64,000 nt of DNA from contig CM067374.1 in NCBI GenBank assembly GCA_034401795.1, positions 95,548,511 through 95,612,510 of the forward strand, written 5' to 3'. Shown piece after piece: positions 7,545 to 56,434 of this stretch. Position 1 is the stretch's first letter. Every line of letters begins with the position of its first letter. Made by a program: the position numbers and the translations under genes. The stretch comes from Chaetoderma sp. LZ-2023a (taxonomy: Eukaryota > Mollusca > Caudofoveata > Chaetodermatida > Chaetodermatidae). Below the pieces are notes generated by a model that saw only the letters and a program-made list of their open reading frames with translations, had not been told where the DNA came from and did not search any database.

Positions 7545-7599
<55 letters not shown>

Positions 7600-7602
7600 C
7601 AC
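7545..7602. repeat. (CTA)n microsatellite, left border of the Tx1 cluster
   Basis: About 19 CTA units, ending in TACCAC just before the T-run that is the poly(A) tail of Tx1 copy A. It is the leftmost of four ACT-type tracts that separate and bound the three Tx1 elements. Confidence 0.95.
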
Positions 7603-7611
7603 TTTTTTTTT

Positions 7612-8579
7612 GTTGAAAATCCGACGCTGACGCAGTCGGACAAACTTCACGGAGGAACTCCTTTAAAAAGGCTTGCAAACCCCCAGAAAAAAACTGGTGA
7701 ACTAGTAAGCCTGATTAATATTACACCAAAACAAAAGATAAATAATGAGCATTAATACAATCTATAAATACATATGGCTTAAATAGTATAGATACAAAAC
7801 AATAAGCTGATATAGATCCGATAGCAAAACAAAACTTAACAAAGGCATTACTATTCAACCCGGGTGTAGTAGTAGACCCGTGTGGCGAGTGCAACTATCC
7901 AACAAATGAAAAGTGCCTCGTCAATCAATGACAAATAAGTCAATCATTGACACCAGTGGGCTGATTCTTTAAAGGTTAGCGGGCGTAGTAGCCTTTGGGT
8001 AGTATAATACATATAGTCGGCAGAAAAATTACAGAAAAATAGATGGCGCTCTTGTTTACATTTTCGATTTACTTTATTGTAAGGTTTTGTAAATTACCAT
8101 TCAATCCATGTGTGGTAGTAGGCGCGTGTAGCTAGTGCAACTATTCAACAAATGAAAAGTGACTCGTCAATCAATGACAAATAAGTCAATCATTGACGCC
8201 AGTGGGCTGATTCTTTAAAGATCAGCGGGCGTAGTAGCATTTGGGTAGCATAACATATATAGTCAGCAGGAAAATTACAGAAAAATAGATGGAAATAGAT
8301 GGTGCTCTTGTTTACATTTTTGATTTACTTTGTTGTAAGTTTTTGTAAATTACCCGGGAACAAATAACCCTAGAAACCTGTGCAAGTTTCTAAAATTACC
8401 CGGGATGATTTTATAATTCAATGGCAACTTACTTTATCGATTGATTATTAAATTACCCCGGTCTGTTTATTTGTTAACATGAATTATTAAACATAACAAT
8501 ATCAAAGTGCAGACTAAAGTGAATTACAGGATACAGATTAATTAAGACACAGATAAATCAGCGGTAGTAATTAAATGAT
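7612..8579 (-). other. 3' UTR of Tx1 copy A with internal duplication and terminal hairpins
   Basis: Two diverged tandem units of about 246 bp (from about 7862 and 8108) share 'gtagtag', 'gtgcaact', 'gactcgtcaatcaatgac', 'gggctgattctttaaag', 'atagatgg' and 'cgctcttgttta'. At the very end, TCCGAC/GTCGGA (7620-7625 with 7635-7640) forms a 6-bp stem with a 9-nt loop. A second small stem GGAG/CTCC lies at 7651-7661. Copy C keeps the same terminal hairpin and the same two-unit layout. Confidence 0.75.
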
Positions 8580-11500
8580 TTAAGCTAGTGCAGGCTCATT
8601 TATTTTTACAGTTCCCAACTCTATTGAAACTATGTTTATTTTGCACCATATGTCCTTGAATACTTTTTCTTTACCATGCTGCTTTAATCTAAAATATTCG
8701 CAAGGATTATGATTCAGCAGCAATGAACGAAATATTGCCTTTATTGCTCTATTGTGATTGCCCATAGATGGATTTTTCGTCTGTGCACACCGATGTTTCC
8801 AAATGGCCCAAACACCTATGGTTAGCATTGTTATTAAACTAGTCCTTTCAGACTTCATGATATTTACACCGCTTGATCCAAATTCTCTAAATAAGACTAC
8901 ATGCGTTTCTAGAACAATGGGCTTCGCTCCAAATTGTGCCAAGATTTGGCTGATATAGTCCCAAAATTGTGACGATATTGGACATTCCGCAAATAAATGC
9001 TCGATTGTTTCCTCGTAACACCTATCAGAAGTCGTAATATTGCACTTGTATGTCAAGTGTCCCACCCATAGCCGTCGATGTAGTAATCGCCACAATAAAT
9101 CACGAGCCATATTTGGTATGTATGGAGTATGTAAGATTTTTCAAACTTTTTTCCAGCTGGATGGTTTATAGCTTGAGTCATCCCAGCTCCTAATTGCTAT
9201 GGGAGGTATTACTTGTTTTCGTCTCATAATGTGGTACCATTCCTTGGATCTCATCTTGTATTTTAACATCTCATTATCAAGAACTAATGCAGGTTGTGGA
9301 GTCAAACTATTATTATTTACATTTGGCAGACGAAACCATTCAATTGGTGCAGCATGTTTTATTTTATTTAGCAACCGCTGGACATCTACATGCCTCATAT
9401 GTGTTTTTCTAGCTACTTCTTGCATTGAAATCCATCCACGTGTTTGAGGGTGTATCATATCAGATAAATGTTGAATGCCATATTTTGCAAAAGATGGTAG
9501 ATAAAGTACTGCATTGTTATAACATATATTACTATTGACCCACAATTGCTGTTCTAGCACGTAGGTGGAGACATGTATCTGTCAAATATTTTCTAACTCC
9601 TTAACTTGATTTTTAAACACATCTGGTATCATTTGGCTATTCGGAGGTGGCTTCTTTGAGGTAAAAACATGCTCAGCCAGAAATGGTTCTACAATTCTCT
9701 CCATGGGAGCTCGTGAAACACATGCCCACGTCTCATCTGATGTAATAAGATCATTAAAAAGTTTTAACCTTAAAGAAACACATTTCACTTTAATATCATT
9801 TAAATCAAGTCCTCCTTCTAACTTAGCATTATTGAGAACACGATGGGAAACTAAATGATTCTTTTCTTCCTATATGAATGGCAATAGCAACTCATTAACC
9901 TCCTTTTCTACATGTGTTGGCATGTGTACAACAGATGCTGTATACCATAGCCCAGATAATACTGAGTTGTTGACAACAAACACTCCACCAAAAATTGAAA
10001 GACGACGACGCTTCCAATTTGCTAATATTCTCTTAAGCTTAGATACTCGTTCATTCCAATTTTGTGTTGTATTCGGTTTCCTGCTAAAATAGATGCCTAA
10101 AATCTTAATGGTATCATTAGACCAATTGATTTCAAGTGGCTGGTCATTCCGCTCTTTCCATGGCCCTAAAAATTATCCTTTGGATTTTCCTTTATTGATT
10201 TTCAAACCAGATGCATTTTGGAACTTTTCTAGTACGTGGTTTAAAATTGCAAAATCATTGTTTGACCTAGTAAACACGGTTGTGTCATCAGCATATTGTG
10301 ACAGCTTAAGTTGTCTTTCTATGCCACGAATACATGTGCCTTGAAAGTTATTATTTTGCCTCAATGCTATGCCAAGGGATTCCATCACAATAACAAATAA
10401 CAATGGCGATAGGGAACACCCCTATCTAACACCACGTTCTAAGACAATTTCTCTGGATAATTGATTGTTCACTAAATAGCTACTCTTGATATCCGTATAT
10501 ATAAATCTTAACCCATTTAATAAAGTTTGAGCCCAACCCAAATGATTGCAAAGAATTAAAAAGAAAATCCCATTCCACACGGTCAAATGCCTTTTCCTTG
10601 TCCAAGGCAATCACAGCTGAAGGGATGCTATCCTTCTCAACCAATTGTATAAGGTCTCTTATTAACATGGTATTGGTTAAAATTGTCCTCCTAGGTACAG
10701 CACATGTCTGCTCTGTTCCAATGATTTCTCCTAAAACACTACCTAGTTTCAATGTTAGTGCTCTGGATATTATTTTGTAGTCTACACATAGTAGAGAAAT
10801 TGGTCTGTAATTCTGAATTAGACGTCTGTCATTTCGTTTATATATTAGCCTTACGTATGCCCTAGCCATAGTTGGTGGTAAATGGCCCTTCTCAAAAATG
10901 TCAGTGGCTAATTCTTCCATTATTGGACCTACAAGGTGCCAAAACGTAATTGCATACAATAGTACTCATTTCATTGTTGGTAAAGACGGTTGAACCATCC
11001 GACATGTTTAATGAGCACATCACCTTATCTATTGCCCGTGCTTTTTCTAATTTGCAAAAATATCGGGTTGGCTTTTCCCCTTCTGCGTGCATCTGGGCTC
11101 TTGCTCTAATTTTTGCACCCTCAAACTCATATTGTTCTATATCTCTTATTTTACTTTTAATTTTAACCAGTAATTCATAATAATTATCTTCATCATTATT
11201 TACTTTAGCATTAATTTTCATTAGTGACCGGTGAAGTGTTTTCTTGCGTTTGCATATTTCCCGTGCTTTTCTAATAGCATACTTTCGGGAAACATACTTT
11301 AAATCCAGTTTTACATCCTCCCACCATTGCAATGTGCTCTTATATGATGCTTTCCTATTAATCCGATGTTGCCAACAACTCTCTATATTATTCTTATAAA
11401 ATTCTTCTCCCAACAGTGTTGTGTTTAATTTCCAAAACCCAACCCTTTTTGTTAGCCAATCAGCATTAGCAAAGGTTACACAAACCACGTTATGATCTGC

Positions 11501-12283
11501 GAATGCAACTGGCTTAATATTAACATCTCTCCCTGTCAACAAACTATTCACATAAATTATGTCGATCCTTGAACCATCTTTACCATCTGCCGAAAAACAT
11601 GTAAGATCTTTACCATGAGGTTTTGATATTTTATAGGTGTCAACTAAATTTTCATTATCACATATTCCTTTTAAGAGTCTATGTGATGTATCAGTATAAG
11701 ATGAAGTTGCATTCCTGTCATTTTCTTTGTCTATGGCACAATTAAAGTCACCACCCATTACTAAGTTTTCAGTGATGTTATCTAGTGCTGTTGTAGACAT
11801 CCCATTAAAAAAATTACGACGTATTTGATGAGATGCAGGTGCATATATACACAGCAATGTGAAACGTGTTTGTTGTATATCTAGCGTGACTCTCACCCAG
11901 CGACCATTGGCACCTGATACTGAAGAGATTATATTTACATAGGCTGAACAACGAGTGAGTATAACAATTGCTACACCTGCACTATTATCTTGAGATAACA
12001 AATAGAATATTCTGGATCCAGAAATCTTTTCTAGATTATCGTATGATTCTGACTTCTGAATTTTTGTTTCCTGTATCAAAGCAATGTCAATCTGCTCATT
12101 TTTCAGAGTCTCTAGTAAGTGACGTTGCTTTATGTCACTATTTAAGCCTCTACAATTGAGTGTGCAAATTAGCATAAAAAGTAATAAAATGATGTGTATA
12201 ACCTCAATTATTAAGCTAAGTAGATATTGGTTTTTTCGACTCTCTCTTAGACCATTTACATATTTTACTCGCAAACGCTGCAC
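8580..12283 (-). pseudogene. Tx1 ORF2 of copy A: APE endonuclease + reverse transcriptase
   Basis: ORF2 polyprotein in several frames. The endonuclease (12283-10901, 460 residues open) shows LNCRGLN, QETK, SAGVAI, IYAP, GDFN, SRIDIIYV and the final ADH, so the catalytic set looks complete. The RT (10959 to about 10173) shows NYRPISLL, ALDKEKAFDRVEW and an intact QYADDTTVF. A zf-RVT-like end (9110-8580: ARDLLWRLLHRRLWVG, then HLFAEC) has lost the first CxxC. Frame breaks fall near 10950, 10480, 10170, 9580 and 9120. It is probably inactive, yet it is the copy with the best preserved catalytic motifs. Confidence 0.85.
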
Positions 12284-12289
12284 TACTTA

Positions 12290-13609
12290 GCTCAACTTTT
12301 TCCAAATGCTTATATTTTAATATATCTGAATCATGACGCAGATGCCTATATTTAACCCCTTTTTCCATCACATATGGAACTCACACCTCTCCTGCCTCTG
12401 ACCTGTACATGACCATTTCATCGGGTGATTTAGAACTCTGTGTTTGAATGGATATATCGGATTCAGCGACTGACATATTATCATCTTCTATATCACTTTC
12501 CTCTATTTCTGATTCAGAACTCTCCCCATCTTTCTGTCGCTTTGTTCCACTCAATCGATCCGAGACACCAATTACTTTCTCTATATTATTTAAATTGTCT
12601 AGATTGAGTGTACTCAGTGGAAAATCAAAGTTAGTTTCAGTATCTTGCGACCTGAATTTTACTTGTCCTAAATTAAAACTCTCTTCCAGAGGGTAATGAT
12701 CATCATCTTCAACGTGTGTGGAATTAGCCTGTCTGACATCAGACTTGGATTTACTGGAGTAAGACTTAGTCCCTCATCTAGAACCTCTATTTCATCACCT
12801 GCAACTACAGCGATTGGATTCTTAGTTTTTTCACCACGCTTCTCATTAACATGGACTTCAGCTACAATCTCAGCACTTACTGGTTCGATGACATTTTCTT
12901 TAGCAACGTTCTTCCCATTAACATGGATTTCAACTACAATCTCAGCAGCTACCGGTTCTATGACATTCTCTTTAGAGACAACTTGTTCTGCACTTTTATC
13001 AGCACCCTTTTTGATATATTTGTTCTGCGGGCATCGCCACTTAAAATGATCTGATGATCCACAAACTAGACATTTGTTTTTGTTAGGGCAATCTGTTGCA
13101 AGATGGTCTGTGCTTAAGCAGATTCTACACTCTTTGATTTGCCCCCTGTACCATAACGGCAAAATAAATCGACCATCTATCGTGACCTTACTTGGGAGAG
13201 GTTGTTCTACCTCTTCGAACCAAATTCTTCTGATGCCATTTTCTAAGGTTCGATCAAATGGATAGGTCTCGTGTTCTACTTTGTCCACTTTGCCATACAT
13301 GATCAATTCATTGATAACCCGTTCATCTGGGATCTCTAATGGACCCTTCATCTTGACTAAGAGACGATCAGAATCTATTTCCTCCACATTACACACCTCA
13401 CCCTTCACGACAAGGACCTCGTCGAGCAACTTTTCCTTCACACTTTCATTAACAACGGTGACATATTTGGAAACGTTAATGAGACCTTGAACGACCCGTG
13501 GCCCTGCCCCAACTACATCCTTCAACCCAAGATACACCTCAATTGCCGAAACACCCCAAGCCTTTGTCATGATTTTAAGACTCAGGTTACGGTTATAGGA
13601 GGTTGCCAT
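12290..13609 (-). pseudogene. Tx1 ORF1 of copy A (CCHC nucleic-acid-binding protein)
   Basis: Opens with MATSYNRNLSLKI at 13609. After an RRM-like N-terminal region it has two CX2CX4HX4C knuckles (CRICLSTDHLATDC and CLVCGSSDHFKWRC), as in Tx1-group ORF1 proteins, which bind the element RNA. The frame runs to 12668 (313 residues). The C-terminal part continues in another frame over about 12690-12290 (DEMVMYRSE recognisable near 12400), so one frameshift broke it. The position just upstream of ORF2 fits the usual bicistronic LINE arrangement. Confidence 0.82.
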
Positions 13610-14298
13610 GGTGTTTTAATAAAAGAGGAAACCCATACTACTACAATATATAAGGGGTAATACAAATATATAATACCAAGACGTCAGGGAAAGAGCTAAA
13701 CACCAAATAAATAGTGTCCCCTTTTGTAACCCTGACGTCTACCAACAAATATATGAATAGAGAGTACAGTCGTATATTTGTTAGTTTGAACCACTTTCTA
13801 AGTGGTTCACTAACACCTAACCGATTAAAGTATACCAACAAATATATGAATAGATAGTACAGTCATATATTTGTTAGTCTATTCGAGTTGACCGGGGACA
13901 GCCAACTGACTACAAGGATTTATATAATTAAAGAACTAGGCTTGCGCTTACAAATGACAAAGGAATTAAATCCACTCACTCAAGCAATCTTGCCATATAT
14001 AATGCGCTAGCCAACGAACCATAGAAATAGCATACTGGCGCGGGGAGAAATGTATTGCATTGACCACAGTAAGAGGAGGCCTATTAAATGGTGGAAACTG
14101 CCAGCTAAGAGGAGTGCCTTTAGAAAATGACACAAAATGCGCTCCAACCAAGACAAGAATTTACAAATTAAACATAAATTTTGAAAGGAAATACTAATAC
14201 TAAATATATGTATAAAATTTATCTACAAAATCGCGCTAGAAACTAGCAAATTCGGGCAGCAATTGCCGAGCTAAATAAATGCGTGCGTTCACTTCGAT
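13610..14298 (-). promoter_or_regulatory. Tx1 copy A 5' UTR with structured elements
   Basis: About 690 bp upstream of ORF1, presumably holding the internal promoter as in other LINEs (family knowledge, not shown here). Visible structure: an 11-bp inverted repeat AGACGTCAGGG/CCCTGACGTCT (13679-13689 and 13730-13740), and a 9-bp stem GAACCACTT/AAGTGGTTC with a 3-nt loop (13788-13808). That stem is extended by GTTAG/CTAAC (13780-13784 with 13810-13814). There is also a duplicated 'accaacaaatatatgaatag' (13741, 13833). By eye it is above 90% identical to the copy C 5' UTR. Confidence 0.7.
13966..14151 (-). CDS. Small upstream ORF in Tx1 copy A 5' UTR
   Basis: 61 codons, starting MVGAHFVSFSKGTPLSW and ending WLAHYIWQDCLSEWI. 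A homologous 62-codon frame occurs at the same place in copy C (28124-27936). The two differ by substitutions and by one codon-sized indel (FVSFSK versus SVSPFSK), so the frame is kept. It is in sense with ORF1 and about 360 bp upstream of it. No family is recognised. It could be a translated upstream ORF of the element or just an open stretch in a highly similar region. Confidence 0.4.
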   Translation of the reverse strand: MVGAHFVSFSKGTPLSWQFPPFNRPPLTVVNAIHFSPRQYAISMVRWLAHYIWQDCLSEWI

Positions 14299-14366
<68 letters not shown>

Positions 14367-14386
14367 TTACTACTACTACTACTACT
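14299..14386. repeat. (TAC)n microsatellite between Tx1 copies A and B
   Basis: About 29 TAC units with one TAT. On its left is the 5' end of copy A, on its right the T-run that is the poly(A) of copy B. Confidence 0.95.
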
Positions 14387-14406
14387 TTTTTTCTTTCTTT
14401 TTTTTT

Positions 14407-15435
14407 GGTAACACGATCAATGGATCGTGTGGAAATCAATAATACCCAAAAATAAACTGACTGAAAGAACATTAAACATAGAACAAATCAAAGAGAACAA
14501 ACGATTATATCAGTCATGTGTATAAATAAACAATAAATATATGGTGGTCAAACGATTAATTTTAAAATTCAAAACAGCTAAATATGTCCCTTTAAAAATT
14601 CCAAGTAACTAGCCCAACAACATTCCATTAAAATTATAAAAGCTCACGCGAGCATAGGCTGTGAAGCAAACACAGCGATCAGACGTATTTAACACACACA
14701 GTCAATCCGGAACAAATTAATCAATAATCAACGCCCCGCAGGATAATCTATAAAAAGTAAATACTAAGATATTACACCGAGTTCAGTGAAGCGACAATGT
14801 AACCTACATAGTTGAAGAGGGTTGAAACTTAACAAACGATTTCAAACAATACAATTTACTTTGAAAAAGAGATTCCATAATTATCCCGGGACAAACACAA
14901 TTATATGTATACATGCTAAGTATTTCCAATCTATTATTAGGAAGCAGTACATTGAATGTTAAATTTATTTTAGTCGAAAGCAATTTACTTTTGTATTCAG
15001 ATTCTAAAATTACCCCGGAACAAACATTATTAATAAAAAAAATGTGGATTGTTTATTAACATTGCTAAAAACAAAATGGGTTAACCTATTCAAACGACCA
15101 CCTAAATTTAAGGACACGGTTTAACCCTTTCAGAGCAAACACTCACAATTTTCATCTCAATCTGATTAGCAGATTTTTAGAGTGCATGCGCGTGTGGAGC
15201 TGTTGCTGCGTGAAGTAAATGCTGCTGTTTCACATAGTAACTGTCAGCGCACATGCATGCACACGCACGCGCACTCTAAAACCACCAATGTTGCATGTGC
15301 TTTAAAAATAATAATTAAAAATATATAGTTAGCTTTTAAATATAGAAAACATCAAGCAAAGTAGTTTGAAACAAAAACACAGCTCCAAGCGCACAAATAC
15401 ATGTATATTATTTAATAAATCACTCCAGAGGCCAA
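14407..15435 (-). other. 3' UTR of Tx1 copy B with terminal 8-bp hairpin
   Basis: About 1 kb without coding sequence. It ends (minus strand) in a perfect 8-bp stem with a 4-nt loop: ACACGATC-AATG-GATCGTGT on the plus strand, 14411-14430, only 4 nt from the poly(A). An unrelated inverted repeat of about 22 bp (15175-15196 and 15260-15281, around 'gcatgcgcgtgtg') may be a small inserted element. Confidence 0.75.
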
Positions 15436-18400
15436 TTACGGTGGATAATAAATAATCAAATTTGTCGAAACACTGGAAATCAAATCACCAGAGCACCAAA
15501 TAACTTCAAAAGAGTGAAGTCTATTTTCACTCACTGCATCATGAAATTCACATTTAAGGCAATACGAGAACAGGGCACGAAAAGCGCACTTCAATTTTTC
15601 AAACCTGCTGGAGTTAAACCCTGTATATGAGTCACTAACTATCGTACAACGATGCTTCCAAATTGCCCAGACCACCACACTCAAACAAAATAACAAGATC
15701 TTCTTTGCATTATTAGTCAGATTATAAGCATCTAATTCATGAAATAGAATTGCATCTTGGATTATGTTGATATCAACTGTAACAATTTTCCTAAATATCT
15801 GTTCAATGTACATCCAAAATTGGGAGACGGGCAAACACTCTGTAAACAAATGGATAATGGTTTCCTCAGTGTCTGTACAAAATATACAGTGGTCATTATT
15901 TGCTATGCCAACTTTCTTGAGGAGGGGGCCCACCCATAGTTTTCTATGAAGCAATCGCCAGACAACATCCCTTGCTCGATTAGGCATGTGTGGTGAATGG
16001 ATATTTTTCCAAACCACATCCCAACTCAGGGGAGAATGTTCACTCCTTTCCCATGCTGCGACAGCCTTTGGAATAGTAATATTCTGCAGCATTAAAATAG
16101 TATACCATCCCTTATTCCTTAACGTACATGAAAAACGTCCATCAGTACTTTCCAGGATTAACTTGGAGCAAGCATCATTCACAGACCCATTAGGGAGAAG
16201 AACCCATTCCATTGGAATTGCTTCCTGTAACCGTTTTAGAAGGCGCTGCACGTCAATTGGGCGTAAAGATGCTACTCGTGATATGTCATATAGTGATTTT
16301 CATTTTCGAGTTTTCACATCCACAATATCACACAAATTTTGAATACCATGCTTAGTAAAAGAAGTGTAATATAAAACTCTGCCTTCATATAGAATATGAT
16401 CATAGGTACTGGCTGGAGGCATGCTCCCAGCAAAGAGGTGAATCTTTTTTGCGAACAAACTTAGCTAAAGCAGCTTTGATGTCCAAAAATACCGATGGAA
16501 TCCGTGTGTAATTCGGTGGAGGTTTAGAAGACTAGAAAAAGGATTTAGCTGAAAATGGCTCAATACACCTTTCTATAAGGCATCTAGACACATTTGCCCA
16601 CTGAGTATCTGAATGAAGTAAATCATCTAATAATTTCAGCCTTAACGAGACGCATTTAATTCTTAGGTCTGGAATGGAAAGCACACCATCAAGCTTATTA
16701 TTAGTACAGACACGTTGTGAGACAAGGTGTGTTTTACCCTTCCACAAATAATCAAATATCATCTTGGTAATTTCCTTTTCAACATGTTTGGGCATATTAA
16801 CAACTGCAGCAATATACCAAAGTTGTGACAATATCAAATTATTGATCACTACTGCCCGGCCAAAAATAGTCAGACGTCGATGTTTCGTTGAATAATTTTC
16901 TTGCTCATTTTAGAAAGCAAGTTTGTCCAATTAATGGAATCATGGTTTGTTCGACTGAAATGAATGCCTAAGATCTGTACTATGTCAGTGGACCAATTGA
17001 TGCCTAATGGCTGATCATTTCGATCTTTCCATGAACCCAAAAACAAACCTACTGATTTTTCTTTATTAATTTTGAGCCCTGACGCATTTTGGAAATTCTA
17101 CAAAGTAAGATGTAAACGATTAAAATCACTATTTTGGCCAACAAAAATAGTCGTATCATCGGACTATTGTGATAATTTCACTGGTGTCATAAGACCAGGA
17201 ATACACAGTCCATGATAATGTATATCTTCTCTTATTGTCGCTCCCAAGGTTTCCATACAAATTACAAATAAAAGTGCTGACAGTGAGAAACCTTGTCGAA
17301 TCCTCGTTCTAAGACAACTGGCTGGCTTATAAAATTGTTCACAAGGTATCTACTAGTAATGCCATTGTACAATATTCGGATCCATTTAATAAAATTGGGC
17401 CCAAAGCCGAATCGATTTAATGACATCAACAAAAACTTCCACTCCAAACGATCGAAAGCCTTTTCATTATCTAATGCCACAATGCCACCTGGAATGTTAT
17501 CCTTTTCAACTAACTGAATCAGATCTCTAATAAGCACAGTGTTGGTTAATATTGATCTAGCAGGTATTGAACATGTCTGAGCAGGATTAATAACGTCGCC
17601 CAGCACCTGACCTAGTTTTAGTGGAAGAGCTCTAGAAATAATCTTGTAATCAACTCCAAGGAGAGAAATTGGCCTATAATTCCGTATGTCACTCCGGTCA
17701 CCCTTTTTAAATAGCATACGTACATGTGCTTGAGACATTGTCAAAGGAAGTTTTCCCTGATGGAAAATCCCTTTAACAATCTCACAGAATTTCGGACCAA
17801 TGAGATGCCAGAAAGTAACGTAAAACTCAACAGGCAGACCATCTCCCCTGGTGATTTTCCATTCTCCATTGTTTTAAGCGATTTAGTCAGGTCTTCTAAG
17901 GTTAAATATTCATCACAAATATCAGCCGACGGAGGAGTCAATGTTTCCTTAATATTAGCAAGTAATTCAGCTGCCAACTCTTCATCAATTTCTTCAGACT
18001 TATATAAATTTTCATAAAATGTCTGAACAGTTTCTAGTAGATCTTTATTTGAATTAACAATTTGCCCATTTATTTCAAGGCCCCTAATTATCTTTTCCAC
18101 ATCTCTAGACTTTTCTAGGCCACAAAAATATTTTGTCGACTTTTCACCTTCAGAATAAAATTGGGCTCTTGAGCTTACTTTTGCGCCTTCTGCTCTGTAC
18201 ATTTCTATTTGTGATAATTTTAACCTGGTCTCCTCCAAAACCTCAGTCAAGTGAATATCGCCGCTTGAAACTTTGCGAAAAATTAAGGTTTGTAGACGAA
18301 TCAACCTTTTCTCCTCTTTACGCATTTTCCTTGCCTTTTGAATAGAATATTACCTTGATATATTAGCAAACTCTGGTTTAACATCTTCCCACCAAAATCT

Positions 18401-19186
18401 CGCTTTCATATTCTGTTTTATTGCGGAGCTTATTACGACAGAAACTATCAATACATCGATGGTACTCAAAATCATTCAGCAAGGAAATATTAAGTTTCCA
18501 AAAACCTGGACCACGTGTAACCCATTCTGCATTATCTAACACAGTGGAAACTACGCGATGATCAGAAAAAGGTACGGGATATATGCCAGTATCCGAAATT
18601 AACCCTTTTAGCTCTCTCTGTACATAAATCCTGTCTAACCGAGAGGCTGTCTGACCATTTACTGTTACCCTTGTATATTCACAACATTCAGGGTATAAAA
18701 CTCTATAGCTATCCAAAAGGTGCTCACTGTCACATATTTCCTGTAAACGCCGATGAGACGTATCAGAGTATATCGATAACGAATGCCTATCCTTCTCTGG
18801 ATTTAAAACACAATTAAAATCTCCATAAAAGACATCAAATTTAGTGTTGAACCAAACATTTCAACAGTCACCACGACCCATCTGCCATTACCATCAGCTT
18901 CCGATGAAATGATATTTAATAAAGTCAAACACCTGGGTAAAAATAAAATCGCCACTCCTGTATTTAAATCAGTGGCATTGGAATAGAATATTTCACCTGT
19001 AGAAAGTTGTTTGAAATTTTCTAAAACTTCAACATTATGGAACTTAGTTTCCTGAAGCATGACGATATCAGCTTTCAAATCAGATAATTTCTCTAGCAAC
19101 ATGCATTGCTTCAATCCATCATTCAAACCACAGCAATTAAGTGAGCAAATTATCATTATGATTAAGAATCTATGCATAGTACCCAT
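15436..19186 (-). pseudogene. Tx1 ORF2 of copy B: endonuclease + RT, disabled
   Basis: Begins 5 nt after the ORF1 stop (ATG at 19186). Endonuclease motifs LNCCGLN and QETKF are followed by an internal deletion near 18840. This removes about 40 residues, including the tyrosine motif (IYAP in copy A), before GDFN. SRLDRIYV and FSDH remain (18716-18378). The RT (18325-17262) keeps NYRPISLLGVDYK and ALDNEKAFDRLEW. The catalytic YADD has become stop-SDD: TAG at 17166-17164. The C-terminal zf-RVT domain (16251-15436) is intact, with CIFCTDTEETIIHLFTEC. At least four frame breaks occur. It is a dead copy. Confidence 0.85.
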
Positions 19187-19191
19187 AATGT

Positions 19192-20598
19192 CTAGTTTGG
19201 TTTTGTCGTCTTACTGTCTTTATCCCGCTTAGCCCATTTGCCAATCTTCATAGTAAACTCTGAATTTGTAAGATCAGTAATGGTCAGATGGTGATACCAT
19301 GAAATGTCTGAATTACTCCACAAATGCCTATAGTGAACACCTAAGCGTGTAATGCATGGAATTAAAATCTCGCCCTTCTCTGAGCGATACAGTACCATTT
19401 CATCGGGCTGCTGAGATTCCTGCGTTTGGATCGAGGTGTCAGACTCTGCAATAGAGATAGAGTCGTCTATATTGTCATCCTCCCTGTCCTCCGCCCCAGA
19501 GCTCAAGTCTTCTATCACTCTTTTAACCCCACCAGTAATAGTATCCTGTACAATTGCCTGTCTAGAATGTATTAATAACACACCAGACTCTGTTAGTGGT
19601 GACAAATCAAATGGTACATCAACATCCATTGACTGAGATCCAAATTGTGTTTGTCCCAGTACTAAACTCTGTGTATCATCAACAGCGTCGGAGTCATCAT
19701 TTTCCTGGGCTATTTCAGCTGTTGCTGGAGCGGTAGCAGATATACCTATCTCCAGAACATCAATCTCATCAACGTGTTTTGCCAGTACTGGATCACCAGC
19801 CTTACTAACAACTGGACCCCCTGTCTTACTAATATTGGGGTCCACAGTCTTACTATCAATGGTATATCCAGCCTTGCTAACAACATGTGCATAGGTGTGT
19901 GGCACATTGCTACTACCGTGTACTTCACTGAAATTGAGAGAAGCAGGATCCATATAGCTAGCACCAGCCTCTTCCACATTACTTGCAGCATTCATCGATG
20001 ATCTTTTATAACATCGAGATTTAAAATGATCAGATGACCCACACAAAAGACACTTATTCTTGTAAGGGCAGGTACTAGCTAGGTGTTCAGTACTTGTGCA
20101 GATACGGCACTCTTTAACCTGGCCCCTATACCACACCGGGAGGAAGAAGCTCCCATCATTAGACAATCTACCTAGAATTGGTGTGTCAATTTTTTCCAGG
20201 CACACCCGTCTTATCCCATTTTCAAGTGTTCTATCGAAGGCATACGTCTCCCTTTCAATTTTTATCACTTGCCCATATTTTCCCAGCTCGGCTGTAATAC
20301 GTTCATTCGGAATTTCAAGAGGGGCCTTCACTTTTACAATCAATTTATCTGAATCAACCTCTTCGATCTTACATATTTGTCCATTGACAATCAGGCCCTC
20401 TTCCAAAAACCTTTCTTTCACTCCTTGTGAACTGACCGTAAGATTCCAGACATTTTTGCTAATATTAATTAGCCCCTTTAAGACATTTGGCCCAACCCCG
20501 ACAGTGTCTTTTATTCCATGATAGACGTCAATAGCGCCAACATTCAACCCAGCAGTGGTGAGCCTAAGGCTAAAAGTCTGTTTATAGCGACTTGACAT
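19192..20598 (-). CDS. Tx1 ORF1 of copy B, intact (CCHC protein)
   Basis: Open frame of 468 residues from MSSRYKQTFSLRL. An in-frame ATG five codons upstream (20613) is possible, but the start chosen matches the starts of copies A and C. An RRM-like N-terminal half is followed by two CX2CX4HX4C knuckles (CRICTSTEHLASTC, CLLCGSSDHFKSRC), then an acidic, low-complexity linker. The end is a conserved DEMVLYRSEKGE segment and a basic GKWAKRDKDSKTTKPN tail. Such proteins coat the element RNA and help target-primed reverse transcription. It is the only unbroken ORF1 of the three. Confidence 0.85.
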   Translation of the reverse strand: MSSRYKQTFSLRLTTAGLNVGAIDVYHGIKDTVGVGPNVLKGLINISKNVWNLTVSSQGVKERFLEEGLIVNGQICKIEEVDSDKLIVKVKAPLEIPNERITAELGKYGQVIKIERETYAFDRTLENGIRRVCLEKIDTPILGRLSNDGSFFLPVWYRGQVKECRICTSTEHLASTCPYKNKCLLCGSSDHFKSRCYKRSSMNAASNVEEAGASYMDPASLNFSEVHGSSNVPHTYAHVVSKAGYTIDSKTVDPNISKTGGPVVSKAGDPVLAKHVDEIDVLEIGISATAPATAEIAQENDDSDAVDDTQSLVLGQTQFGSQSMDVDVPFDLSPLTESGVLLIHSRQAIVQDTITGGVKRVIEDLSSGAEDREDDNIDDSISIAESDTSIQTQESQQPDEMVLYRSEKGEILIPCITRLGVHYRHLWSNSDISWYHHLTITDLTNSEFTMKIGKWAKRDKDSKTTKPN

Positions 20599-21014
20599 GT
20601 TACTAGCGAGCATTCACATTGACCTAGATTACTCCTGTCTACTGCAGTGAATATAAATGCACGTCAAAGCGCTATATCTCGACAGGTCAGCGAGATCGGC
20701 CTAAGCAGAAAGCTCAGCCCGCCAAATACAAATGCGCTTATCAATAACGGAGATAAAGCCACCTAAACTTATATACAAAATGTAACAAGACGGTTGCCAA
20801 ATACAATGGCAGTTTACTTGGCGACTCTAGTTCTCGAAACCAGAAAACCAGAGTCACAAAATACGACAACAACGACGAATAAAACACAAACAGAAAACAT
20901 CAAACTCAACCAAAACCGCTTATGCAGCGAACAAAACAAAAATTAAGTGAATACGAGCAGTAGTGACGAAAACATTCGTCAGAATTAGCAGAGCCAATTT
21001 CAGCACAGCTTTCA
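20599..21014 (-). promoter_or_regulatory. 5' UTR of Tx1 copy B
   Basis: About 415 bp between the ACT tract and ORF1. It shows no visible similarity to the A/C 5' UTR, no upstream ORF of note and no strong hairpin. The junction with the microsatellite is 'tttcaatg|actactact' on the plus strand. Confidence 0.5.
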
Positions 21015-21078
21015 ATGACTACTACTACTACTACCACTACTACTATTACCGCTGCTGCTGCTGCTACCACTACTACTG

Positions 21079-21128
<50 letters not shown>

Positions 21129-21156
21129 GCTGCTGCTGCTTCTGCTGCTGCTGCAG

Positions 21157-21244
<88 letters not shown>

Positions 21245-21258
21245 TACTACTACTACTG

Positions 21259-21298
<40 letters not shown>

Positions 21299-21304
21299 CC
21301 ACTA

Positions 21305-21349
<45 letters not shown>

Positions 21350-21404
21350 ATGCTGATGTTGCTGCTGCTGCTGCTGCTGCTACTATTACTACTACTACTA
21401 CTAC
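21015..21404. repeat. Compound (ACT/GCT/GAC)n tract between Tx1 copies B and C
   Basis: About 390 bp of trinucleotide repeats, mainly ACT, with GCT and GAC sub-blocks. It gives false poly-T/S/Y frames on both strands. It joins the 5' end of B to the poly(A) of C. Confidence 0.95.
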
Positions 21405-21413
21405 TTTTTTTTT

Positions 21414-22348
21414 CGAAAATCCGACGCTGACGCAGTCGGACACACCTCACGGAGGAACTCCTTTAAAAAAAGGCTTGCAAACCCCCATAAAAAATCGGGT
21501 GAAATAGCAGGCTTTATTAATAGTATATGAATAACAATACAAACTTAACATATCAAAACCGTGCAAGCTAAAATACTCTATTACCATATACCACACCCAT
21601 GGCATAACTACATAGAGAAAAAAGTTAATAAAGAGCTGATAACATAATATAATTCAACAAAGCCATTACTATTTGCACACCGTGTAGTAGTAGGCCCAAA
21701 TGGCGAGCATAGTTACCCAATAAGTGGTAAAGCGACTCATCAATAATTAGCAGTAAGTTACTGATACTCATTGACGCCATTGAACCGATTCATGACCGGC
21801 AGGCTAAGTAGATCATATGTAGTTTAACGTAGCAGACCATATAGTATTGGGCCCAAATGGAGAGTGCAGCTCGTCAATTAGTGGCGAGGTGACTCGTCAA
21901 TAAGTAACCAAAGGTCACTCATTGACGCCGGTTGGCCGGTTCTTAAATACTGAGCAGGCGTAGTAGCCTTTATGTCGTAAAATGCACAAAGCAAAAGTAT
22001 ACAAGCTATGACTACATAGATGGCGCTCTGGGTTCACATTTTAAATTTACTTCATTGTAAGTTTTTGTAAGTTACCCTGGAACATATACACCTACAGTAA
22101 ACATTTACAGCAGAATGTGAATTGTATATATGAAAGATGTCATACTCTGTTAACCTAATGAACTCGAAAGTCGGATCACCTCCAGAATATTGACGTGATG
22201 CTCAATTGATATTTAAATATACCGATTCCCAAGGTTAGGTTATTCATCAAAATTATCATCTCCTAAGAAATTAAAATTTTAAAATTAGCTCAATTAAATA
22301 AAATAAAATACCATATATCAATATACAACAAGCAGCGAGTGTGCTAGC
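21414..22348 (-). other. 3' UTR of Tx1 copy C with duplicated unit and terminal hairpin
   Basis: Two tandem units (about 21690-21840 and 21853-22077) correspond to the duplicated unit in the copy A 3' UTR ('gactcgtcaata', 'cattgacgcc', 'tagatggcgctc'). The last 30 nt hold the same TCCGAC/GTCGGA stem (21420-21425 with 21435-21440) and the GGAG/CTCC stem. Confidence 0.75.
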
Positions 22349-25300
22349 TTATACAAGTTCTGCTTCTCCTATTTTTAGATATCCATGTTCAATTGATACT
22401 AGGCCAGTTTTGCCCCATATATCTTTAAATCTACTTTCTTTTCCATGTTCCACTAGCCTGTAAAATTCACAATGAATGCAGTTTATCAACAATGATCGAA
22501 ATATAGCTTGTATGGCTCTTTGGTGGTTGTTTCCTCTTTTATCTCTGACCTCTAAACATCGATGTTTCGAAATGGCCCACACTCCTACAGATATCAGGCC
22601 CACACTCCTACATATATCAGGGTTACTAACAATTATTCTCCTTGCTATTAATGATTCGTCCGATAGTTGAGCAATCTTTGAACATAATTGTTTCAGCCAT
22701 TAATTTCACATATTTGATTCCAAATTTAGCAAGGAGCATATTGATAAATACCCAAAAGCCTGTAGCTATACAACACTGTGTAAACAGATGGTCTATTGTT
22801 TTCTCCTCGGTGTTACATAATAAACACCGGTCAGTACTTGTTATTTTGCACATATAAGTCAGATGGCCGACCCATAGCCTTCGATGGAGTAATCGCCATG
22901 TCAGGTCCCGTGCGGTTGCTGTTAGACAAGGTAGATGTATTGTTTTCCACGCATTTTTCCAGTTCTTTTGCGTGCATCCTAATGTGTTCCAATACCTAAC
23001 TGCAACAGGGGTCTGTCTCCGACTTTGCATTAGCATTCCATACCAGGCTCTAGATGCCATGTTGTATTTTATATGCTCTGACTTAAATACTAATGTTTGT
23101 TGCAACATATCTCTGTTGGCACGTGCATCCGGCAATTTGAACCATTCACCAGGTATTGCATTCTTTATTCTAAGAAACAAGCATTGGGCATCAATATGCC
23201 TCATTGATGTTGCTCTTGCTACATCCTGCATCGCGATCCATTTGCAAATTTTGGATTAACTAAATCACGTAAATATTGAATGCCATTTTTGGCCATAGAG
23301 GGAAAATATAATACAGCATCATTATCACGAATCAACTCGTTGCCCCAAAGACGTTGCTCTAAGGCATCTTCCCAACAACTGGGTTGTGGCATTGATCGTG
23401 TAAATATCTTTAAAGCTTCGAGCTGTTCTTTATATACGTTTGGTATCTTCTAATGGTTAGGTGGCAGTTTATTGCACAAAAATAAACATTCTACTGGAAA
23501 TGGATCTATGTACCCTTGTAGAAGTGTCCTTGCAGCACTTGACCAAGATGAGTTTGAAGTGAGTAACTTATTCAAGAATTTCAGTTTTAGCGAAGCACAC
23601 TTTGCTAAAACATTAACCAAATCCAGGCCTCCATCATGCTTTTCATTGATGAGGATTGAATGCGATACTAAATGGGCTTTGTCCTTCCATAAGAAGGACA
23701 AAAGTAACGTGTTGATCTTTGACTCTACTGATTTGGGCATATGAACTACAGAAGCGGTATACCACAGTCCAGATAAAATTAAATTATTAAGAACAAATGT
23801 CCTGCCAAATACAGTTAGGCGACGTCGTTTCCAATTTACTAATGCACACTTTAGCTTGGATAGCCTTTCTTCCCAGTTTATTATTACATCCTGTTCTCTA
23901 CTAAAGTAAATACCCAAAATCTTTATGACATCATCTGACCAGTTAATATCCATAACATTGTCAGTTCTGTCCTTCCAAGCGCCCAAAAATAATCCCTTAG
24001 ATTTGTCTCTATTGACTTTAAGCTCTGATGCCTTTTGAAAATCTGATAACACTCCATTTAAAATTCTAAAATCTGAATTTTTACCTGCAAACACAGTCGT
24101 ATCATTTGCACATTGAGACACCTTTAGTGGCCTTTCTGCGCCACGTATACATATTCCTTGAAAATCATTACGTTACCTCAATGTGGCCCCCAACGATTCC
24201 ATAGCTATGAGGAATAGAAGCGGAGACAATGAGCAACCCTGTCTGACATCTCCTTCCAACACTACAGGTTCAGATAGATGATTATTTACTAAATAGCAAC
24301 TTGTTATAACAGTATATAACATATTGACCCATTTAACAAATCTGGAACCAAAGCCAAAATGGTCTAAAGACTTAAACAAGAAGTCCCATTCAAGTCTGTC
24401 AAACGCCTTCTCGTTATCAAGTGCTATTATTGCTGCTGGGATGCAATCCTTTTCAACTAATTGAATACGGTCTCGTATAAGCAATGTTTTGTTTAATATC
24501 GTTCTTCCTGGTACAGAGCACATTTGATCATCATCAATTACTTCGCCTAGGACTGCGCCAAGTTTTAATGTTAGTGCCCGAGTAATAATCTTATAGTCTA
24601 CACAGAGTAGAGAGATTGGTCTATAATTCTGTATTTTATTGCTGTCACCCCTCTTGTATATAAGCCGAACATATGCTTGGGCCATCGATGGAGGGAGATG
24701 CCCTTGCTTAAAAATGCTAGCTGCTATTTCTTCTAATACTTGACCAAATATGTGCCAGAATGTTTGATAAAATTCGACTGGAAGCCCGTTGCAGCCAGGA
24801 GACTTTTCTAACTTCATACCTTTGAGGGATTTTGTCAAATCATCAATTGTTAGTGATTGGTCACAACTTTCGCGACATTCATCTGGAAGTCTTTAGCGTT
24901 ATATTAGCTAAAATATCTCTAGTTGCAGTTTCATCACTTCCCTCAGATTTATACAATGATTTGTAAAATTTGGATACTGTTTCCATCATCTCTGCATTTG
25001 AGGACACTGATACACCATCATTAGTCTTCAGTGAGTGCATTGATTTCTCTATACCTCTTGCTTTTTCCAAGTTACAAAAGTAACGTGCAGGCTTTTCACC
25101 CTCGGTGTGCATTTGTGCTCTTGCCCTTATTTTGGCACCATCAAACTGATATTGCTCTATTTCATTTAGTCTACCTTTTAATTTAACTAATAGTTCGTAA
25201 TAATTATATTCTCCATCATTAATTTTCTTATTAATTTTACACACCAACCGCTGAAGCGCCTTTGTACGCTTTCGCATTTCTCGTGGTTTCCTGATGGAAT

Positions 25301-26226
25301 ACTGCCTTGAAATATGATTCAGGTCGGATTTAACATCCTCCCACCAGTCTGTTATGCATTCATACACACTTCTCTTTTCATCTCAATGCCTCCAACAACT
25401 TGCTACACATTTGCGATAGCAACTATTTCGTAACAACGCTACATTAAGTTCCCAAAATCCATCTCCTCGTTTGATCCAGTCAGCATTGTCAAATGTGATG
25501 GAAAACATATTGTGATCAGAGAAAGTTACTGGTTTTCTGTTAGATTTACACATGTAACCTTTCAATGATCGTTCTACATAGATCCTGTCCAATCTGGATG
25601 CTTTCTTTCCATCGGTTGAAAACCAAGTAAAGTCCCTGCCCTTTGAATCCGATAAGTGTCTAACAAGGTTTTATATTCACAGATGTGTTTCAAAATATTA
25701 TGAGATGTGTCATTAAAAGTATACCTAGCGTTTCTGTCTTTAACATCATCTAATATGGAATTAAAGTCACCGACCATAATTAGGTTTTCAGGCATTCTGT
25801 CTTCAATTATTGTGGAAACATCATTTAGAAATTCACGACACAATTGATGAGAGGTTGGCGCATAAAGGCACATTAAATTTAACCTTGTGTTTAGTACATC
25901 AATTGATACACAAATTCATCGTCCATTTGTATCTGATGACGAGGATATAGCATCAACATAGTTGAGACCGCGGGGCAGGATAAGAATGGCTACTCCCGCG
26001 CTATTATCTTGTGATAAAGAATAAAAAATCTGCCCTTTTGAAATATTTTGAGAGATTCATATACTTCAATTTTTGGAATTTTGGTCTCTTGTAGAAAAGC
26101 AATATCAACTCTCTCATTTGCTAATTCTTCAAGCAAGTGGCGCTGCTTGAATTCGGTATTTAATCCTCTGCAATTGATGGTGCCGATAATCATAATTTGT
26201 AAAATGATGTTTACAACCGCCATCAT
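22349..26226 (-). pseudogene. Tx1 ORF2 of copy C, RT active site mutated
   Basis: Pieces in at least seven frames. Endonuclease fragments 26226-25990 (INCRGLN, QETK), 25873-25574 (GDFN) and 25592-25383 (MDRIYV, FSDH). Linker 25367-24879. RT 24838-24173 (NYRPISLLCVDYK, ALDNEKAFDRLEW, VRQGCSLSPLLF). The catalytic box is CANDTTV instead of YADDTTV (24112-24101), so the first catalytic Asp is now Asn. The zf-RVT-like C-terminus (23231-22349) keeps CLLCNTEEKTIDHLFTQC but is split by a frameshift near 22620. It is not functional. Confidence 0.85.
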
Positions 26227-26239
26227 CAGATTAACTTGA

Positions 26240-27586
26240 TTTGGGGGTTTTAGCTCGTTTCTTAGACCATTTACCTAATTTGCCTGCGAATTCAATGTTT
26301 CCTCGTTCTACCACAGACAAATATTCCTATTTGGAAATATCAGAATCATGGCGCAGTAGACGATATTTCACGCCTCTCGCCGTTACATATGGCACTAACA
26401 CTTCACCCCCTTCTGATCGGTACATTACCATTTCATCTTTCATTTGTGAACTCTGTGTTTGAATGGACACATCCGATTCTGCAACTGACATTGTATCATC
26501 ATTCATATCATTTACTTCAATCTCAGATTCTGAGCTATTGTATTCTTTATAACGCTTATTGCTACTTAAGATACATTTGGCAGGAGCGTCATTTACCATA
26601 TCTTCAAGCTGGCTTAAATCAAGAGGGCTTAGCGGAAAATCGACTGAACTTTCCGTCTTCTGAGTCCTAAACTCATCCTGTCCTAATTTTAATTCATCTT
26701 CTAAGGAATTGTAAACTGGCTCTTCTGTAAGATCATCATTTTCCTGCGTGTCTTTTACAGCCACGTTTGGCTCCACTGCATTTTGATTATTTTCTTGACT
26801 TAAGGTTATACCCTCCTCTAATACTTGAATTTCATCAACTGTAGTTACTTTAACAGGACTTGATGATTTGTTTGTGTCATTTTCAGTGGCATGAACCACA
26901 ACAACAGCTTCCGTAGTGGTTGCTCCAGAAGCATTTGACTCAGTTGCATCCTTTAATGGGCGATTATCTCCTGATACTGAGGGCTTGTTTTGATTTTTTG
27001 GACAGCGCCATTTAAAGTGGTCTACTGAACCACAGAGCAAACATTTGTTTCGATTGGGACAATCTGGTGCTAAATGGTCAGTACTTAGGCAGATCCGGCA
27101 CTCTTTAATTTGCCCTCTATACCATAAAGGCAGGACAAAGCTGAAATCAAGCGTCAATCTGCTTGGTAACGGGCTATCCACTTTATCAAACCAGATGCGT
27201 CTTACACCGTTTTCTAGCGTTCTGTCAAAGGGATACGTTTCCCGTTCAATCTTTTGCGCTTTGCCATACTTCTTGAGTTCATTCATGATTCTGTCACCTG
27301 GAATTTCTAGTGGAACTTTCATCTTCACTAGCAACCTATCTGACTCGATTTCCTCTACGTTACAAACTTCGCCTTTTACAATAAGAACATCTTCTAGAAG
27401 CTTTTCCTTGACCCCCTCATTTGACACTGTTACATTCCATACAGTTTTAGAAACATTGATAAGCCCCTGCAAAGCAGCAGGTCCCGCGCCAACGACGTCC
27501 TTTAACCCACGATACACGTCGATAGCCATGACACCCCACCCCTTAGTTGTTATCTCAAGGCTTATGGTACGCTTATAGGTTGCCAT
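26240..27586 (-). pseudogene. Tx1 ORF1 of copy C (CCHC protein, one premature stop)
   Basis: Starts MATYKRTISLEITTKGWG and is open for 419 residues. Two CCHC knuckles lie at about residues 163-176 (CRICLSTDHLAPDC) and 182-195 (CLLCGSVDHFKWRC), followed by an acidic linker and DEMVMYRSEGGEV. A TAG at 26329-26327 stops the frame. The same frame then continues to a basic GKWSKKRAKTPKSS ending at about 26240, homologous to the end of the intact copy B ORF1. So a single nonsense change separates this from an intact gene. Confidence 0.83.
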
Positions 27587-28262
27587 GGTGTTTTATAAAA
27601 AGAGCAAACCCATACTACCACAATATATAATACAAAAATATAACACCAAGACGTCGGGGGAAAGAGCTAAACACTAAATAAATAGTGTCCCATTTTGAAA
27701 CCCTGACGTCTACCAACAAATATACGAATAGAGAGTACAGTCGTATATTTGTTAGTTTGAACCACTTTCTAAGTGGTTCACTAACACCTAACCGATTAAA
27801 GTGGTTCCCTAATGCATACTAACATATTACAGATATATATTTGTTAGTCTGTTCGGGTTGACCGGGGACAGCCAACTGACCATAAAGATTTATATAATCA
27901 AAGTACTAGGCTTGCGCTTACAAATGACAAATGAATTAAATCCACTCACTCAAGCGATCTTGCCAAATATAATGCGCTAGCCAACGATCTATAGAAATAG
28001 CATACTGGCGCTGGCAGAAAAGTATTGCATTGACCACAGTAAGAGGCGACCTATTAAATGGCTGAAACCGCCAGCTAAGAGGAGTGCCTTTAGAAAATGG
28101 AGACACAGAATGCGCTCCAACCAAGACAAGAATTTACAAATTAAACATAAAGTTTGAAAGGAAATACTAATACGAAATATATGTATAAAATGTATCTACA
28201 AAATCGCGCTAGAAACTAGCAAATTCAGGTAGCAATTGCAGAGCTAAATAAACGCGTGCGTT
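27587..28262 (-). promoter_or_regulatory. Tx1 copy C 5' UTR with the same structured elements as copy A
   Basis: Nearly identical to 13610-14298. It keeps the GAACCACTT/AAGTGGTTC hairpin, the AGACGTC.../...GACGTCT inverted repeat (one mismatch here) and the upstream ORF. It lacks the second 'accaacaaatatatgaatag' copy seen in A, carrying different sequence there (about 27805-27835). The similarity to A drops sharply at the ORF1 start codon. Confidence 0.7.
27936..28124 (-). CDS. Small upstream ORF in Tx1 copy C 5' UTR
   Basis: 62 codons, MVGAHSVSPFSKGTPLSW to WLAHYIWQDRLSEWI, the counterpart of 13966-14151 in copy A. One three-base indel and scattered substitutions separate them, without a stop. 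Function unknown; it is in sense with ORF1 and ORF2. Confidence 0.4.
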   Translation of the reverse strand: MVGAHSVSPFSKGTPLSWRFQPFNRSPLTVVNAILFCQRQYAISIDRWLAHYIWQDRLSEWI

Positions 28263-28330
<68 letters not shown>

Positions 28331-28331
28331 A
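28263..28331. repeat. (ACT)n microsatellite, right border of the Tx1 cluster
   Basis: About 23 ACT units between the 5' end of copy C and the flanking dispersed repeat. With 7545-7602 it marks the outer limits of the original microsatellite that received the insertions. Confidence 0.95.
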
Positions 28332-53579: not shown

Positions 53580-54330
53580 GGATAGTAGGCTAGTCCAGTA
53601 GGCAGGCTAGTAGGGCGTGCCGGTTACTAGGATATTAGGCTAGGCCAGTAGGCGGGCTAGTAGGCTAGACAAGTCGGCATGCTACTAGGTTAGGTCAGTA
53701 GGCAGGCTAGTAGAATAAACTAGCAGTCTGGACTAGAAGTCTAGGCTAGTAGATTAGGGTATAAGTTTAGGCTAGTGCACTAGGCTAGAAGACTATGCTA
53801 GTAGCCTAGATAGATTATGTTAGTAGGCTAGTAGACTTGGCAAGACATCTAGACAGGAAATATAGGCTAGTTGGCTAGTATACGAGGGTAGAAGTGCGTG
53901 GTAGAAGGCTAGGCTATGAGGCTAGTAGACTAGGTAGACGTTGCTAGAAATTTAGGCTAGAAGTCTCGGGTAGTAGACTATGGTGGAAGTCTAGTCCAGC
54001 AATCTAGGCTAAAAGTCTAGATTACTAGGCTTGGAGACTAGGCTAGGAAACTAGGCTAAACGTCTAGGCTATTAGGCTAGTAGACTATCTTAGAAGTCTA
54101 GGCTAGATGTTTCAGCTAGGAAGCTAGTAGACTTGGTAACAATTCTAGTCTAGAAGTCTAGGCTAGTAGGCTGATAGACCAGGCAGTAAGCATAGGCTAA
54201 TGGGCTTGTAAAAGAGGCTAGAAAACCAGGCTAGAAGTCTTGGCAAGTACATTAGGTTGCTCGAAGTCTAGACTAAAAGTCTAGGCCATTAGGCCAGTAG
54301 ACTATTCTAGAAATCTACACTCTGATAGAC
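53580..54330. repeat. CTAG-rich minisatellite, block 1
   Basis: Degenerate array of units close to AGGCTAGTAGACT and AGGCTAGAAGTCT (13 bp), with 8-bp AGGCTAGT insertions. Every unit carries CTAG. No open frame. Confidence 0.9.
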
Positions 54331-54344
54331 AGCAGCAGACATCT

Positions 54345-54840
54345 CCCAGCAATTTATAGCAAGGTCAATTAAGATAGCAAATACGAAGGAATCTGAAAGA
54401 TTAAAAAAATAGGTACATTACTTAATATCTATGATGAAGAATGTCATAAGCTAATTCAGAATGTTTACACTAACTAAGTCTTGTTGACAAGACAGAACAT
54501 ATAAATGAGTTTGAACCTTAACACCTGCTAGAGTCCATCCAGTTGTTATGAAAGTTATACCTTGAGATAGGGAAGATAGCTATAAAAGGAAACTAATATT
54601 CAAAAGGATACTGGCAGCAATAAACATATCTGAAACCATTCCAAGTACTTGAAAAAGATGTGTTTATGAGAGAAATGTTATATAATGCATACAAGAAACA
54701 ATGTGAATATATTTCAGTCTAATGCTTTATGAAAAATAATCATGGAAAAGAAAATAGATTGTTATATTATGTATTACTATTCAATACGATGTCATATATT
54801 ATATGTAATAAAAACATAAGCAAGTGTGACACGCTATGGT
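54345..54840 (+). repeat. ~450-600-bp repeat unit, copy 3
   Basis: Preceded by 'agcagcagac' and embedded between minisatellite blocks 1 and 2. Very similar to copy 1 in its right half ('aaacatatctgaaaccattc', 'gtattactattcaatacg'). Confidence 0.8.
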
Positions 54841-54849
54841 TTTGACTGT

Positions 54850-55720: not shown

Positions 55721-55727
55721 GGACAAA

Positions 55728-56425: not shown

Positions 56426-56434
56426 TCTATACTA

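Follow-up and report, generated by a model that had tools for sequence, protein, structure and literature searches.

L1-group LINEs stacked head to tail in an (ACT)n microsatellite of a chaetodermatid mollusc: evidence for a lineage that very probably inserts into ACT/AGT repeats

The window analysed here is a stretch of 64,000 nucleotides from the caudofoveate mollusc Chaetoderma sp. LZ-2023a (assembly GCA_034401795.1, contig CM067374.1, positions 95,548,511 to 95,612,510 of the forward strand), in which three copies of long interspersed nuclear elements (LINEs), A, B and C, stand head to tail on the minus strand. We consider it very probable that these are L1-group LINEs of one clade, inserting specifically into (ACT)n/(AGT)n microsatellites. 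In window coordinates, an (ACT)n tract at the 3' end of A (7545..7603) is followed by copy A, near full length (7604..14296, ends approximate, with CGAAGTGAACGCACGC at the 5' end), by a second tract separating the 5' end of A from the 3' end of B (14299..14386), by copy B (14387..21017), by a long and degenerate tract with GCT and GAC runs from the 5' end of B to the 3' end of C (21018..21405), by copy C, near full length (21406..28263), and by a last tract at the 5' end of C (28264..28330). Runs of at least six perfect ACT/AGT units occur in the window only at these four tracts. On the minus strand, each copy ends with a hairpin (7621-7639 in A, 14411-14430 in B, 21421-21439 in C), an A-rich tail that leads into GTAGTAG (in A, GTGGTAG), and all three 5' ends adjoin AGT, in A through a short ATT. 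The sequence of the hairpin preceding the A-tail in A and C is unlike that in B, and of the three 3' ends only that of A folds clearly better than shuffled sequences (z -3.1; C -1.6, B -0.4). A sequence-only reading of the window had described three near-full-length minus-strand copies with ACT-type repeat at both ends, poly(A) meeting GTA/TAG and 5' ends meeting AGT; this observation is confirmed, and both junctions are seen in all three copies, with the small departures of A just given.

Regarding the coding regions, all on the minus strand, stops or frameshifts break the second open reading frame (ORF2) in every window copy. In A, ORF1 is represented by a piece of 313 amino acids (aa; 12668..13609) and ORF2 by an apurinic/apyrimidinic (APE) endonuclease part (10901..12283, PF03372) and by a reverse transcriptase (RT) plus C-terminal part (8583..10965) interrupted by frameshifts and stops. 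Copy B holds an open ORF1 of 473 aa (19192..20613), for which three relatives only were found, and an ORF2 spread over several frames with endonuclease and RT (15436..19210; zf-RVT within 15436-16251), while C has an ORF1 of 419 aa (26327..27586) and an RT core (24173..24838; RVT_1, E 5e-22). Across the open pieces, Pfam reports the APE endonuclease PF03372, RVT_1 and zf-RVT. CCHC zinc knuckles in ORF1 are typical of the Tx1 clade; the matches to them in the ORF1 of A (a weak one), B and C all lie under the Pfam cut-off.

Each copy has a long open relative in a public protein set, at identities by piece of 82-90% for C (P0001), 89-97% for A (P0002) and 88-97% for B (P0003). When these were used in tblastn, ORF2 identity by piece was 48-75% between A and C and 37-70% between B and C. 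At the nucleotide level, A and C are 80.5% identical across a 1,276-nt stretch at the 5' end and 88% identical in the final 121 nt, against 67-69% in two long coding blocks, a pattern of similar end modules in which exchange between families is possible. The sequence-only reading had placed A and C in a single family; the coding blocks and the ORF2 identities rule this out, and A, B and C are best described, on the sequences compared, as three families of one clade. P0004 is a fourth family, closest to B, and a quick tree with 37 rows unites P0001-P0004 in one clade (Shimodaira-Hasegawa-like approximate likelihood ratio test 100), P0005 being their sister. P0001 aligns with human L1 ORF2p over residues 13-874 (E 6e-84; best R2 9e-13), and human L1 ORF2p is also the best solved match both by sequence and by fold (9hdr, for a P0003 model of the B family with a mean predicted local distance difference test score of 86.1). 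The motifs QET, GDFN, SRLD and SDH, which we take to have catalytic roles, are present in P0001 and P0003. The element proteins are of the L1 group, with an APE-type endonuclease N-terminal to an RT of the type without long terminal repeats (non-LTR). The presence of the APE domain separates them from the R4/Dong, HERO and NeSL groups, which are defined by a restriction-like endonuclease and no APE, and elements that are A-tailed and encode an RT do not fit the SaTar type of Mutator-like elements (MULEs), which are DNA transposons with terminal inverted repeats, such repeats not having been searched for as such. Among the 120 matches listed, the single 'TX1' label is that of P0010, from a coral, and is an annotation. 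In seven A-type copies, 330 nt of the 3' untranslated region (UTR) have a mean identity of 96.6%, and since these stretches differ by only 1-8%, fairly recent activity is suggested.

The window's own genome (2,438,752,110 bases, or 2.44 Gb, in 2,753 contigs) contains these ends in large numbers. With up to two mismatches, the 23-nt core of the A/C 3' end was found in 2,960 copies (1,500+1,460) and the B 3' core in 419+400 copies, controls (reversed for A/C) giving none. Flanks were read at 80 ends, all on one contig (C1) and located by exact cores: 40 A/C 3' ends (the 2nd to 41st exact places listed, with about 260 bases of 3' flank each), 20 A/C 5' ends and 20 B 3' ends (the first 20 exact places of each). 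An A-rich tail followed by AGT repeat in a single orientation was present at 40/40 A/C 3' ends, AGT preceded 20/20 A/C 5' ends, and 19/20 B 3' ends ran into AGT; the tabulation of genomic flanks that the sequence-only reading had called for has thus, in its own genome, come out in its favour. A strict rule, which requires (AGT)3 to start within 45 nt whatever its phase, is passed by 39 of the 40 A/C 3' ends; in the sole exception (L064), an imperfect tract of 14 nt leads into the 5' end of the adjacent element. The same rule is satisfied at 379 of 380,000 positions (0.1%) in 19 random regions (190 kb, both strands), a background that rules out chance association with AGT. In the C1 samples, nearly all copies accordingly lie in one repeated sequence with a fixed orientation. 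A gapped 3'-end pattern that included a short tail gave 74+81 overlapping matches, which yield no rate, and none in the control; a scan of viral contigs for the A/C hairpin returned two matches, of which L001 has neither A-tail nor AGT after the hairpin.

Junctions searched for without reference to any element show the same polarity. Genome-wide, A7(GTA)4G occurs 1,725 times (898+827), its reversed control 3+2 times, and the inverted A7(CTA)4C, in which the tail would meet the opposite strand, 24 times (13+11); these counts give no rate, since the A7 pattern favours short pure tails. The phase of the junction, assigned by regular expression, is A..GTAG rather than A..TAG at 37:3 A/C ends (p=1.3e-4 against 2/3) and at 18:1 B copies in tracts. 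Of one hundred listed A7(GTA)4G junctions, 51 correspond to A/C or B ends on the lists (20 through a 3' core and 31 through a 5' end located 6-8.5 kb upstream), which leaves 49 unmatched. For 36 of the 100, an exact A/C 5' end lies 6.6-8.3 kb upstream on the same strand, and for none on the opposite strand; 22 of these 36 distances fall between 6,904 and 6,943 bp. Among the unmatched junctions, 16 were read and 16/16 match the 3' ends of A (8), C (3) or B type (5); two of them (L119 and L131), which match B over about 70 nt only, may like L120 belong to further families.

The position, orientation and phase of the junctions are shown in these samples, and the proteins carry an APE endonuclease and an RT. 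The targeting of ACT repeats by this lineage, as proposed from the window, is borne out to that extent, recognition by the endonuclease being the step that we infer. In this scheme, the endonuclease would determine the choice of target by nicking the ACT strand near 5'-CTACT/ACTA, where ACT/A and AC/T are indistinguishable; the freed 3' end would pair with the A-tail of the element, and reverse transcription would begin there, i.e., target-primed reverse transcription. A nick at ACT/A or AC/T followed by A-tail priming fits the data because the junction phase is mostly A..GTAG. As a nick on one strand of an asymmetric repeat would impose a direction, insertions in one tract would share their orientation, and since repeat remains on either side of every insertion the site would stay usable, so that later insertions, of the same or another family, would extend a head-to-tail array.

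How the 5' end is attached is less certain. The A/C 5' core, with up to two mismatches, was found in 2,690 copies (1,344+1,346; control 0). The 12 nt ahead of GAACGCACGC are AGTAGTCGAAGT in 18 of the 20 ends read, AGAAGTCGAAGT in one and AGTAGTAGTAGT in one; in the window, the 5' junction of copy C has the AGTAGTAGTAGT form and that of copy A reads AGTAATCGAAGT, and in copy C as well as in L084 the junction skips CGAAGT to the next AGT. Seven copies read over 2 kb upstream (7/7) show no truncation there. Repeat homology may aid 5' joining, which would explain both the uniform, in-phase 5' junction and the many full-length copies: the RNA would start in the upstream AGT tract, and the ACT end of the cDNA would anneal to the target, yielding full-length insertions. 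We give this possibility serious weight, somewhat short of an even chance. It agrees with 5' cores nearly as numerous as 3' cores (2,690 and 2,960, both with up to two mismatches), with the seven untruncated copies, with the clustering of full-length distances (22/36 at 6,904-6,943 bp) and with the skipping of CGAAGT, as microhomology would produce. However, a phase-specific nick of the second strand followed by plain joining yields identical junctions, the ratio of 5' to 3' cores depends on the conservation of each core, and just 36 of 100 tail junctions were paired, by exact cores, with a listed 5' end. Homology-assisted joining predicts AGU repeats on the element RNA, RNA starts at CGAAGTGAAC or CGAAGUGAAC without AGU being the contrary pattern.

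Arrays are also seen elsewhere, along C1. Up to 102.4 Mb of this contig, with at least 144 distinct 3' ends, the 34 pairs of 3' ends no more than 15 kb apart all agree in strand, with no opposite-strand pair; 48 of the 144 listed ends have such a neighbour, where about 0.04 neighbours per end would be expected from even placement. Exact A/C 5' ends follow within 2 kb downstream, in the same orientation, at 5/50 exact A/C 3' ends and 4/14 exact B 3' ends, and the other three arrangements within 2 kb were found 0 times. A second array (C1:994500-1004499) consists of a full-length C copy, an AGT tract and a 5'-truncated copy abutting (ACT)21, and at L101 a B 3' end is followed by AGT and then by an apparent B-type 5' end. 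At C1:67465748-67469907, only 4.16 kb of one strand separate a listed tail junction from a listed A/C 5' end, which may mark a copy with an internal deletion. Such arrays might instead arise mainly from unequal crossing over between AGT tracts. Duplication does happen: L052 and L053, like L099 and L100, have matching flanks and lie 12-14 kb apart, so that one of the 40 A/C ends is probably a duplicate, L099 and L100 are probably duplicates too, and some arrays outside the window involve segmental duplication. As the main source of arrays we nevertheless find it unlikely, against the three families of the window array, the B-then-A/C order within 2 kb at 4/14 exact B ends (C1 below 102 Mb) with none of the other three arrangements, and the divergence of two copies of one array, D1 and D2 (89.6% and 84.8% identical to C). 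Repeated insertion into one tract, as the sequence-only reading had it, is the more probable origin; its term 'nested array' suits the window copies less well than 'stacked'; true nesting was seen once, with a B copy inside an A/C 5' UTR. Elsewhere in the window, RT fragments of other LINEs lie on the minus strand at 1861-2961 and 4301-5062, and 53583-63819 is a long minisatellite region of 13-bp TAGGCTAG-type units.

The sequence-only reading had itself named, as a finding that would tell against it, ACT tracts that are element-encoded tails only. In a wider form of this alternative, AGT repeat would belong to each element at its 5' end and in its tail, and insertion would be untargeted. A uniform 5' phase with 18/20 ends identical over 12 nt would be expected if AGT were in the element RNA, the AGT tract in the 5' flank of L080 contains repeated AGTCGAAGT units, as if the 5' end had been re-copied, and a mini-copy described below (L132) has no 5' AGT. 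Truncated copies speak for targets: D2 (L027), truncated within ORF2, abuts (AGT)n within a few bases, a truncated copy at L068 is separated by about 20 nt from a pure AGT tract beyond its truncation point, and a possible mini-copy at L041, made of the last few bases and the A-tail, lies between AGT repeats, although it could also be a local duplication. These four truncated copies, two clear and one possible with 5' AGT and one without, are not a random sample; it is because 5'-truncated copies have AGT at the truncation point that we take the tracts for targets rather than element tails. Moreover, GCA, GGT, GTC or CCT-type triplets are interspersed in many of the flanking tracts, as they are in host arrays, and ACT tracts exist without elements: three of the four ACT-chosen loci outside the window (L004, L005 and L006) have no A, B or C homology in 6-9 kb. 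Wholly element-encoded tracts are thus very improbable. The least probable alternative, hardly to be credited, is that the endonuclease has no specificity and that ACT tracts are merely permissive or break-prone, or that insertions elsewhere were removed by selection: the tracts are indeed abundant, overlapping (ACT)7 occurring at 1,117,397 positions, about 11 times as many as the 99,284 of the reversed repeat, but neither breaks nor selection would be expected to give a fixed orientation (1,725 against 24) and a biased phase. Of the tail junctions, 51/100 listed were matched to this lineage, and 16/16 further ones read also belong to it.

Several points weigh against specific insertion into ACT/AGT repeats. 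One of the 20 B copies (L102, C1:22671230-22671512) lies outside any tract, at TTAGTATTAGTATT of an A/C 5' UTR, a site that is perhaps a minimal target. A 34-nt mini-copy at L132 (C7:81673300-81674400) has AGT on its 3' side only; its long duplicated flank looks like the outcome of unequal exchange or of a target duplication of very large size. In full-length copies, some of the 5' tract could be element-encoded. Old copies are under-sampled because the cores were exact, and the sampled ends are confined to C1, where L052/L053 and L099/L100 share flanks and L085/L097 and L031/L092 are each one tract read from two sides. The 16 unmatched junctions that were read are the first in order of the 49, with three skipped. 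The random background depends on a single tract, in which all 379 positions lie, and the random regions provided no flank test because the 19 held no copy of these families, two of them (L011 and L013) having 22-40% protein matches to other LINEs only.

Stacked or microsatellite-bound retroelements have precedents that differ from the present one. The Tx1 group includes microsatellite-targeting families, and Dong of the R4 clade, which belongs to a group with restriction-like endonuclease, has a microsatellite target as well. In Zepp of Chlorella, LINEs are also stacked on one another, but these are subtelomeric and insert into one another rather than, as here, into a trinucleotide repeat. Human L1, whose ORF2p is the best solved match in sequence and fold and which is likewise A-tailed, differs from the ACT lineage in that it is not known to be confined to one microsatellite. 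Target-specific Tx1 LINEs belong to the L1 clade (PMC3747384), carry an APE-type endonuclease (PMC4640811) and include Keno in U2 small nuclear RNA, Mutsu in 5S ribosomal RNA and Dewa in a tRNA-Leu spacer (PMC3706591), non-LTR elements use multicopy targets, microsatellites included (PMC4640811, PMC8869645), and L1-Tx1 elements occur in molluscs (PMC10294476). The likeness to the Tx1 LINEs lies in the APE-type endonuclease and the multicopy target and is not based on RT placement, the differences being the (ACT)n target and the head-to-tail arrays of several families. Togen, specific for (TG)n, and some HERO families share a microsatellite target, as outlined in PMC4640811, but with a restriction-like endonuclease in place of the APE type. 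SaTar/MULE arrays of guayule and rice, as summarized in PMC5907723, are similarly modular, non-nested and multi-family, joined by microsatellite; they consist of non-autonomous DNA transposons and several repeat types, as opposed to LINEs, one repeat and one orientation here. Searches of open-access papers, judged by the titles and abstract openings among the matches listed, showed no described LINE targeting ACT.

Finally, these elements, whose ends number in the thousands and display strand and phase clearly, add a trinucleotide repeat to the targets of LINEs and provide a LINE counterpart to the modular microsatellite arrays of plant DNA transposons. With the target common to three or more families of one clade, the responsible features of the endonuclease can be compared, and because the 5' junction is uniform, the attachment of LINE 5' ends can be tested on many natural copies. 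We also put forward, tentatively and with less confidence than homology-assisted joining as such, that a single microsatellite serves this lineage at either end of its insertion: the ACT strand would be the nick and primer site, and the same repeat at the 5' end of the RNA would guide the cDNA back into the tract. If so, mostly full-length insertions and self-extending arrays of several families would follow, and element and microsatellite would expand together.

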